The translations under genes were made by a program, and so were the position numbers. A stretch of 64,000 nt of DNA. Origin: Bacteroidaceae bacterium. GTDB taxonomy: Bacteria > Bacteroidota > Bacteroidia > Bacteroidales > Bacteroidaceae. The notes under the pieces are model-generated. The model did not search any database, was not told the DNA's origin, and saw nothing but the letters and a program-made list of their open reading frames with translations. Shown here piece after piece: positions 40,835-43,313 of this stretch (position 1 is the stretch's first letter; each line of letters opens with the position of its first letter). Location of the stretch: positions 1 through 64,000 of the forward strand of contig JAFWYF010000032.1 in assembly GCA_017522785.1 (NCBI GenBank), given 5' to 3'.

Positions 40835-41863
40835 TTATTTTCTTTTAAAGCTCAACAGGTCCATTTTCCATGTTACGCCCGCATCTATAATTGTCTGCTT
40901 GTCGGACAATGCTCCTAAGGGATTGTTACTACCCCAAGTGTAGCAACCGTTTAGGTGCAGACGAACATCTTTGGAGTTCTTTATAGGGAAGAACTCAACA
41001 CCAAGTCCGGCACGTGTGATTTCTGTTCCGGGCAATACACAATAATCTCCCTGTTTGTTGGTGTTGTTTACATCGTATGATATATGTGTAAAAATATTTA
41101 GACAATTTATGGGGCTCCACATAAGCTCACCCATAACCGACATATCTTTGCCAAGATATGCATGTCCGCTTACCGCACGATTCATAATATCCAGTTCCAT
41201 TGAGAAATCACCTACGTTCAGTTTATGTCCAAGAACAATGTAATTGATGAATTTTTCCGGCAGATACTCAATCATATTTACAGAATATATGGTATTAAAC
41301 CAGTCGTGAGAACCGTACCACATAACATTGTATGCAAGCATCTCTTTGTTCTCAATGTTTCCTGCATTTTTACGAAAGGGACTTTCGCATATCTGTGCCA
41401 CAAATTTGTCGTTTTTGTTGTTGGTGGTAAATGCTACACTTGCTCCTAACTGATAACAAGGAATGTTGTTCCAATACTCCGATGCATAATAAATGTCTAT
41501 TGGCGCACGGTCGTACTCATATCCACCAAGGCCAACTACTAATTTACCTGCCGAAACACTCCAGTTCTTTTTGGTATATGTAAGATATATCCAGTCTGTA
41601 GCATCAAAAAATGAGGCATCTTTGTTAGGCTTGTTAAGGCGTTGGCGATAGGAATATGAGAACTCTTCGCTAATATTTCCATCCATGCGAATATTTAGAA
41701 ATTTTCCTTTGAAACCACTGTTGTTGTGGATTTTGTCGCCATCTATGGTCTCGTGTTGGTAATCTCCACGTGCTTCGATACGAAGGTTCAATAACTCATT
41801 GCTTTGAGCAAAGATGTTTGCGAAAGATAGAGCGAAAAGCCCTACAAGGATAAGTTTTCTCAT
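40835..41863 (-). CDS. Porin of the OprO/OprP (Porin_O_P) type
   Basis: 342-residue outer-membrane barrel with signal peptide (MRKLILVGLFALSFANIFAQ) and alternating strands with many aromatic girdle residues (FSYSYRQRLNKPNKD, WIYLTYTKKNWSVSAGK). It resembles Bacteroidetes phosphate-selective-porin-like proteins, though phosphate specificity is not shown. It lies in one operon with the Gate-domain protein, suggesting outer- and inner-membrane steps for one small substrate (inference). Confidence 0.75.
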   Translation of the reverse strand: MRKLILVGLFALSFANIFAQSNELLNLRIEARGDYQHETIDGDKIHNNSGFKGKFLNIRMDGNISEEFSYSYRQRLNKPNKDASFFDATDWIYLTYTKKNWSVSAGKLVVGLGGYEYDRAPIDIYYASEYWNNIPCYQLGASVAFTTNNKNDKFVAQICESPFRKNAGNIENKEMLAYNVMWYGSHDWFNTIYSVNMIEYLPEKFINYIVLGHKLNVGDFSMELDIMNRAVSGHAYLGKDMSVMGELMWSPINCLNIFTHISYDVNNTNKQGDYCVLPGTEITRAGLGVEFFPIKNSKDVRLHLNGCYTWGSNNPLGALSDKQTIIDAGVTWKMDLLSFKRK

Positions 41864-41914
41864 AGTAATATGATGTTTATAAACAGCCTATTGGCCTGAT
41901 GTTTGCTGTGGGTG

Positions 41915-41922
41915 CAAATATA
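41915..41922 (-). promoter_or_regulatory. -7 box of the porin operon
   Basis: TATATTTG on the - strand, 52 nt before the ATG at 41863. Confidence 0.45.
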
Positions 41923-42008
41923 GTGTATTTTTTTAATCTATTTATACACTATAAAAATATATTGCTTCTTCTGTAATAGTAAACTATGTATAAATAGGGT
42001 GAAAAATA

Positions 42009-42033
42009 AGAGGCCGACCTTTGGTCGGCCTCT
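42009..42033 (-). terminator. GC-rich terminator hairpin
   Basis: AGAGGCCGACC (42009-42019) pairs perfectly with GGTCGGCCTCT (42023-42033), loop TTT. On the - strand it is followed by TATTTTTC, so it probably ends transcripts coming from the acyltransferase gene or from the element at 42072-42137. Confidence 0.7.
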
Positions 42034-42071
42034 ATCGGCCTGTCTACATCACATATCAACCACAAACCAGA

Positions 42072-42137
42072 CCGTTACGTAAGTGTCGCAGACAAAGGTT
42101 AAAACCGCGACTCATATATATAAATACTTACGAACGG
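42072..42137. ncRNA. Candidate structured RNA or 3' UTR element
   Basis: Nested pairs: CCGTT (42072-42076) with AACGG (42133-42137); CGTAAGT (42078-42084) with ACTTACG (42126-42132), leaving A42077 bulged; GTCGC (42085-42089) with GCGAC (42107-42111); GGTT (42097-42100) with AACC (42103-42106). AGACA in the internal bulge (42090-42094) can also pair with TGTCT at 42041-42045, a possible pseudoknot. The - strand is favoured because a terminator follows there. No known RNA family is recognised. Confidence 0.4.
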
Positions 42138-42164
42138 TTTTTGTTCAATTGATATACAAATTTC

Positions 42165-43313
42165 TTATTTTGTCGCTTTCAAATAGTTGATAAGCGGGTT
42201 TGCATACATCTCAAGTATTTTGGTGCGCAGGAATGCTTCGTCCTTGTTCGGAAGGTCCACTTTCTCGATGCGCTCGGCAAGGTATTTGTCGAGTTGCTCT
42301 TTGTCGGCCTCGGTGTATTTGTCGGCAAATTGGCTATCGCCTGTGAGCAGTTCGTAATAGTAGTAATTAACGGGCCATAGACGATAGTTTTTGTGTATGA
42401 TGTGGTCTATGATACGAGCAACTGTTGCAGTTTTTTCATTTTTTGTTAGTTCACGGTCTATCTGTGCAATCTGCTCATTAATTACATCGGCAACATGGTA
42501 ATGTATAGCTCCTTTGTAGCCAAATAGGCCCGTTTGCATGTTTATAAGATCGTCTATTGGCGATTTCTTATGCTCGGGGTTGTCGCGTTTCTGTTGGAAT
42601 TCCTTTGCCTTAAGATAATCACATGGGTCGAACTCATACGATATGGTGGTAGGTGCAATATTCAATACCTTCAATGAGTCTATGATATCTTCATTGCTAT
42701 ACATAGAGAACATCTTTATGAGTCCCTCTTGTGTTGTGTCATTAGAATCCTTTGCGCGTCCTTCGCGTTGCGCAATCCAAACTGGCTGTTTGCGCTCTGT
42801 TATAGCATGGTGTATATAAGAAGAAAGGCGTTTCGATGATGCTAACATCTCGCGAATAGAGGCTGAGCGCTGTACAATGAAACTGCGGTTTACGCGTACC
42901 AATTTCTTTATCCATGGACGTATGAGTAGGTTATCGCCAATTGCAATTTCTACTGTATTGTCTATGTTTTGAACCATCAGCAGACACAAGAAAGCGGAAT
43001 CCAATATTATATCGCGGTGGTTTGATATTGACAAGATTGCTCCAAGGTGCTCTTTATTGTCGTAGCTCATGGTTATTCCACGACTGAATTTTTGTATCAA
43101 AGTACCAAGGAATGGGTAAACTAACGCTTTCTGAAAGTCTAGGTTGGTTTTGCTGTTACGCATCATTTCGGCCACTTTCTCAAACGGTATTTGTGGAAAA
43201 ATGTGCTCTATCACCATTTTAAATTCCGGGTCAGCGATAAGTTCTTCATACACAGCCGGTAACTCTTCCGGTACATACGGACGAATTTCGTCAAATTCTT
43301 TTGGGATAGTCAT
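42165..43313 (-). CDS. PlsC/PlsB-like acyltransferase
   Basis: 382-residue glycerol-phosphate or lysophospholipid acyltransferase-like protein. The catalytic block is SNHRDIILDS (His with nearby Asp), followed by the glycerol-phosphate-binding type region RSFIVQRSASIRE and the EGRAKDSND stretch. No signal peptide; probably membrane-associated on the cytoplasmic side. Bacteroides genomes carry similar proteins annotated as 1-acyl-sn-glycerol-3-phosphate acyltransferases. It is monocistronic, with a TATCTTCG box upstream. Confidence 0.78.
   Translation of the reverse strand: MTIPKEFDEIRPYVPEELPAVYEELIADPEFKMVIEHIFPQIPFEKVAEMMRNSKTNLDFQKALVYPFLGTLIQKFSRGITMSYDNKEHLGAILSISNHRDIILDSAFLCLLMVQNIDNTVEIAIGDNLLIRPWIKKLVRVNRSFIVQRSASIREMLASSKRLSSYIHHAITERKQPVWIAQREGRAKDSNDTTQEGLIKMFSMYSNEDIIDSLKVLNIAPTTISYEFDPCDYLKAKEFQQKRDNPEHKKSPIDDLINMQTGLFGYKGAIHYHVADVINEQIAQIDRELTKNEKTATVARIIDHIIHKNYRLWPVNYYYYELLTGDSQFADKYTEADKEQLDKYLAERIEKVDLPNKDEAFLRTKILEMYANPLINYLKATK

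Follow-up and report, generated by a model that had tools for sequence, protein, structure and literature searches.

A candidate small-RNA family beside an acyltransferase gene, very probably restricted to one uncultured genus of Bacteroidaceae

Few small RNAs are known from uncultured gut Bacteroidaceae, and the question raised by this locus is whether the region between an acyltransferase gene and a porin gene, in a window of 64,000 nucleotides (the whole stretch of DNA analysed; assembly GCA_017522785.1), encodes an RNA in its own right. A preliminary description had proposed a structured RNA on the minus strand ending in an intrinsic terminator; this part held, although the best-conserved part of the element, the core hairpin P3 with its loop, had been missed (Table 1). 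Judging from the comparison of related genomes, the locus very probably belongs to a genuine family of small RNAs that had not been catalogued before and that is confined to a single uncultured genus. The preferred reading, to which a probability of about 0.62 is given, is a single-copy, independently transcribed sRNA of about 105–111 nt on the minus strand, composed of a 5' hairpin (P2), P3 with its conserved loop as the putative seed, and the terminator.

Table 1. Coordinates in the window of the elements and genes discussed
Feature	Position	Strand	Description
Upstream gene	42165..43313	-	Acyltransferase (Pfam PF01553)
Upstream promoter-like box	42140..42146	-	GAACAAA; RAACA at near-equal distance in 14 aligned homologues
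P1, 5' arm (closing stem of the preliminary description)	42126..42137	-	CCGTTCGTAAGT; within the promoter-like spacer; pairs with 42084-42072
Second promoter-like box	42113..42123	-	TTATATATATG; ends 1-2 nt before the P2 helix; constant span from GAACAAA
P2 (5' hairpin)	42085..42111	-	GUCGCGG/CUGCGAC, 7 bp (42111-42105 with 42091-42085); 7/7 pairs kept in G006, 3 compensatory double changes
P1, 3' arm	42072..42084	-	ACTTACGTAACGG; overlaps the 5' strand of P3
P3 (core hairpin)	42036..42074	-	CGGUCUG...CAGGCCG; covariance models R1/R2 and pair counts
G/U-rich loop of P3, proposed seed	42047..42066	-	UUUGUGGUUGAUAUGUGAUG here; conserved in family alignments
Intrinsic terminator	42002..42033	-	11-bp stem (42033-42009), then TATTTTT
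Downstream gene	40835..41863	-	Porin_O_P (PF07396)

The 146-nt stretch 42145-42000 of the minus strand folds with −52.8 kcal/mol, compared with −33.2±3.7 kcal/mol for dinucleotide shuffles (z −5.35), and none of 200 shuffles was as good. The T-run of the terminator is found on the minus strand only, so that the terminator is directional, and no ORF of at least 80 aa covers 41864-42164. The 12-bp closing stem with one bulge (here P1) and the 11-bp terminator claimed earlier are both present, while the inner GTCGC/GCGAC stem is longer than had been described, forming the 7-bp helix GTCGCGG/CTGCGAC. As for the GGTT/AACC tip, it can be read in the sequence (GGTTTTAACC), but its GG is already taken by this helix; likewise, the letters TGTCT/AGACA of the suggested pseudoknot (42041-42045 with 42090-42094) exist, but a by-eye check did not find it conserved in the homologues, since it could be drawn in G006 only by using the P3 stem and was not seen in the others.

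The acyltransferase orthologues of 44 genomes of the genus were collected and both flanks were read, and a recurrent arrangement was found, consisting of a hairpin CGGUC...GACCG around a U-U-G-A-U-N-U-G-U-G-R-Y-G loop, with a strong terminator, unrelated in sequence, after it. The core was turned into a covariance model (R1), refined to a second one (R2), and both, searched across the genomes of the genus, gave a single copy in any one genome, next to the acyltransferase (E=1.3e-5 in the genome of the window, G000), R2 adding G010 at the expected site. In total, one copy per genome was found in 18 of the 44 genomes (~40%), a figure which includes G010, with its terminator region interrupted by a repeat, as well as the diverged G005 and G064, both read by eye. 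A DNA search gave no second copy in the genome of the window, and at the DNA level similarity among 60 relatives was limited to G006 (78%, E=1.6e-14). Two side observations belong here: the G010 repeat is of ~100 bp (CGTTACGCTTGCCTTCAAAATCCTCATTTACGC..., about 1915-2050 of L137), with a near-identical copy after the acyltransferase of the same genome (L041); and in G033, upstream of the acyltransferase (L049), TTGTGCTGTTGATTATGTGCTGTTGAGC stands right before a terminator and was missed by the models, being a possible diverged member.

Beyond the genus, the search of 301 genomes of the family, from 30 genera, gave matches confined to genomes of the genus, so that no homologue was found in the at least 258 same-family genomes outside it. 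Among 295 genomes of the order there were two weak matches (G273 and G072), neither followed by a terminator, which were taken as chance. When 84,980 species genomes were scanned for the exact motif, 22 matches were obtained, four of them true homologues, all Bacteroidales/Bacteroidaceae MAGs matching genomes of the genus; where a title names their source, it is roe deer or water buffalo gut. No Rfam 15 family was matched either at the gathering threshold or at E≤10, and a mobile origin was rejected, phages and plasmids giving no match.

The homologous intergenic regions, in which the preliminary description had proposed to look for covariation, therefore exist, and they covary. In the family alignment, which was fitted to the covariance model and is thus biased towards the structure, 91.8% of the P3 cells are paired, five of them changed on both sides, and the covariation score is 0.248 versus 0.160±0.028 in shuffles, none of 500 reaching 0.248; shifting the partner by one column lowers pairing to ~40%. 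Fully exchanged P3 stems are directly readable in G009 (GACAGUC/GACUGUC) and G005 (GCCCGU/ACGGGC). For P2, a plain MAFFT alignment of the two closest homologues, G000 and G006, kept 7/7 pairs with three double compensatory changes; P3 and the terminator are not brought into register there and score poorly, although each sequence alone pairs well. P2 is missing in G010, G014 and G015, the loop consensus across the family is approximately U-U-G-A-U-N-U-G-U-G-R-Y-G, and P3 is followed in most homologues by a terminator hairpin of unrelated sequence, G026 having P3 only. In a separate observation, G011 carries near its acyltransferase start (L047), in the 5' flank, a short tandem repeat of approximately TTTACTGTTGA in 4-5 copies, partly loop-like.

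In a short intergenic region, a fold arising by chance could be suspected, or nothing more than a terminator accompanied by incidental hairpins, the more so as strong terminators inflate folding scores; P2/P3 covariation, the conservation of the loop and the single-copy occurrence at syntenic sites make this extremely unlikely. In fact, the claim that the region holds more structure than a simple terminator was borne out by both the folding score and the covariation. The absence of a protein frame was also confirmed, as the short frames are not conserved among the homologues. A small ORF starting from the TATG box (e.g. MRPVVVDVW..., MYDAFPKSAIGHRGLSVVDV) was considered and rejected as not coding, since frames and peptides vary from one homologue to another; what is conserved is a secondary structure, with P2 and P3 covarying while the peptides differ. 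Coding and riboswitch readings of the RNA are both disfavoured.

The second of these depends on the neighbouring genes. Upstream of the RNA stands a co-directional acyltransferase in ten loci (counting G008), a divergent one in seven, and ldcA in G001, where the acyltransferase lies 5 kb from the RNA. Downstream, in the 17 loci other than G001, there is a porin gene in seven, a qdtA-like gene in five (qdtA in G032), an spmA-like gene in three and a gene on the opposite strand in two (G016 and G035). Since P3, and mostly the terminator, is kept beside three downstream gene kinds and in two orientations to the acyltransferase, the RNA appears as a gene in its own right. As to the arrangement itself, one part of the genus, as sampled by the 18 RNA-bearing genomes, has the acyltransferase turned round with respect to the RNA and spmA/qdtA, and Porin_O_P was seen at the RNA site only in the co-directional arrangement.

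If the element acted in cis as the leader of the downstream gene, as a riboswitch or attenuator, the alternative pairing of P1 and P3 would be its switch, and indeed the two are mutually exclusive, as the 3' arm of the former shares nucleotides with the 5' strand of the latter, and at most loci the terminator is followed by a co-directional gene. Nevertheless, P3 and the terminator have no nucleotides in common, so that a P1/P3 switch would not control the terminator, and in G016 and G035 the gene that follows is encoded on the opposite strand. Moreover, three unrelated kinds of gene are found downstream and, where checked, they have their own −7-like boxes beyond the terminator (read from the sequence; in the porin gene, TATATTTG at 41922-41915), which makes a leader very unlikely.

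The preferred reading of an independently transcribed sRNA requires a promoter of its own. In 14 homologues an RAACA... box is followed, after a variable spacer, by a TTA-rich box that mostly ends in (A)TG; the two together span 32-34 nt, and they precede P2, or P3 in the P2-less G010, G014 and G015. As far as their placement goes, the boxes look like a promoter with the start at the first helix, the predicted start being within a few nt of 42112. Nonetheless, the Bacteroides consensus is TTTG/TAnnTTTG (PMC7366714), and the boxes match TAnnTTTG poorly, so they are not a clean promoter of this type. A wider regulon sharing the same boxes was discarded, as a search of the 44 genomes gave 18 exact matches, four of which are the RNA itself, against 10 for the reversed-pattern control. 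Transcription from these boxes would run from ~42112 to ~42002 on the minus strand.

The position of P1 is what bears on the extent of the transcript. The closing stem of the preliminary description can be read in the sequence, but it is present in some relatives only and its 5' arm lies in the apparent promoter spacer. For this reason the discrete RNA is predicted to be probably ~105-111 nt long rather than the ~140 nt suggested earlier, with P1 probably lying partly outside it. P1 arms vary between species yet remain complementary. In the nine loci that place the RNA downstream of the acyltransferase, P1 pairing amounts to −14.0 kcal/mol versus −9.0 kcal/mol with swapped partners (0/20000 permutations); the 16 loci together give p=1e-4 (permutation), the remaining seven (six divergent and G001) p=0.45, and against dinucleotide-shuffled stretches p≤0.05 was reached in 7/9 downstream loci versus 0/7 others, all being statistics that ignore relatedness and a split that was noticed before it was tested. 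G001, in which the RNA is co-directional with its upstream gene (ldcA), is without P1. Because complementarity is non-random only where the RNA is downstream of the acyltransferase, P1 probably forms in transcripts reading in from that gene, masking the core.

These data could also be accommodated by taking the RNA as the acyltransferase mRNA's own 3' UTR, or as an sRNA processed from it, starting upstream of GAACAAA, with P1 as the true closing stem and a P1/P3 switch. P1 is part of the minimum-energy fold of the minus-strand stretch, its complementarity is non-random in co-directional loci, and there a separate promoter would be unnecessary. As in 3'-UTR-derived sRNAs, the RNA stands in ten loci directly downstream of a co-directional acyltransferase, whose terminator it would share. 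Unlike them, it is transcribed away from the acyltransferase in seven genomes and needs its own promoter there; these loci, in which the RNA is on the opposite strand, have the core and mostly the same boxes, and lack P1. Furthermore, the constant 32-34-nt box span with its variable spacer resembles promoter DNA, and the 3'-UTR origin is judged unlikely. Also doubtful, to a similar degree, is a two-faced locus, in which an sRNA from the internal promoter would be active, with its seed exposed, whereas the read-through acyltransferase mRNA, carrying the anti-core in the promoter spacer, would adopt an inactive fold.

For the independently transcribed sRNA, analogy with the sRNAs of Bacteroides makes a trans-acting RNA with the P3 loop as seed the most likely mechanism. 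P3 would display the G/U-rich loop, which may base-pair with mRNAs in trans, as in the sRNA regulation of Bacteroides; where the acyltransferase precedes the RNA on the same strand, the sequence following the acyltransferase stop codon would be complementary to the core, and read-through transcripts would fold P1 and hide it. In the search for targets, the 13-mer complement of the loop, with one mismatch allowed, occurred in six genomes modestly more often than the reversed control, and neither this search nor a comparison of the nanA 5' UTR found a target site conserved among relatives. In the genome of the window, the 5' UTR of a nanA-like gene (N-acetylneuraminate lyase family) holds a perfect 12-bp loop complement 27 nt before the start (AUCAACCACAAA; G000:C10 about 130111-130084, minus strand); it was rejected as a target, with ~9-10 bp kept in G006 and the site absent elsewhere. 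The porin mRNA was likewise set aside, as its start came 11th among 47 in the window.

Alternatively, the G/U-rich loop might bind a protein instead of mRNAs, the RNA acting as a regulator sponge or in a 6S-like manner. The loop is the sole part conserved in sequence and is held in a hairpin, and the searches gave no conserved mRNA target; with no Rfam match, 6S included, and no RRM_1 protein in the genome of the window, this is considered improbable. Like 6S RNA (RF00013), the element is a small, highly structured bacterial RNA with what appears to be its own transcription unit; unlike it, it is without a long double strand with a central bubble and matches no Rfam family.

Among known systems, the closest comparison is with FopS and GibS, intergenic sRNAs of Bacteroides in which a conserved stretch outside the terminator hairpin pairs with mRNA starts; FopS occurs as 12-15 paralogues in a genome, its seed is 5' and single-stranded, and its partner is RbpB, an RRM protein (PMC11697453, PMC7366714). 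Here too, a Bacteroidaceae intergenic RNA has a conserved stretch outside an intrinsic terminator, mRNA pairing being shown for FopS/GibS and only proposed in this case. The present RNA differs in being single-copy, in holding its conserved stretch in a hairpin loop, in having no Rfam match and in the lack of an RRM_1 protein in the genome; it does not belong to the FopS/GibS class, which is a multicopy family with an R1 seed, bound by RRM-1. Since no RRM_1 protein resembling RbpB is encoded in the genome of the window, the link to RbpB/FopS was rejected and this circuit of Bacteroides is not transferable. The Bacteroidaceae lack homologues of the classical RNA chaperones as a group (PMC11697453), and none of the known sRNA-binding proteins of Bacteroides is apparent in this genome.

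The family is compact, covarying and single-copy; its candidate seed is clear and its distribution can be defined. Orientation-dependent P1 is one unusual feature of an otherwise known sRNA type and, if the pattern is real, it would show how an sRNA encoded at a gene's 3' end can be shielded from read-through transcription.
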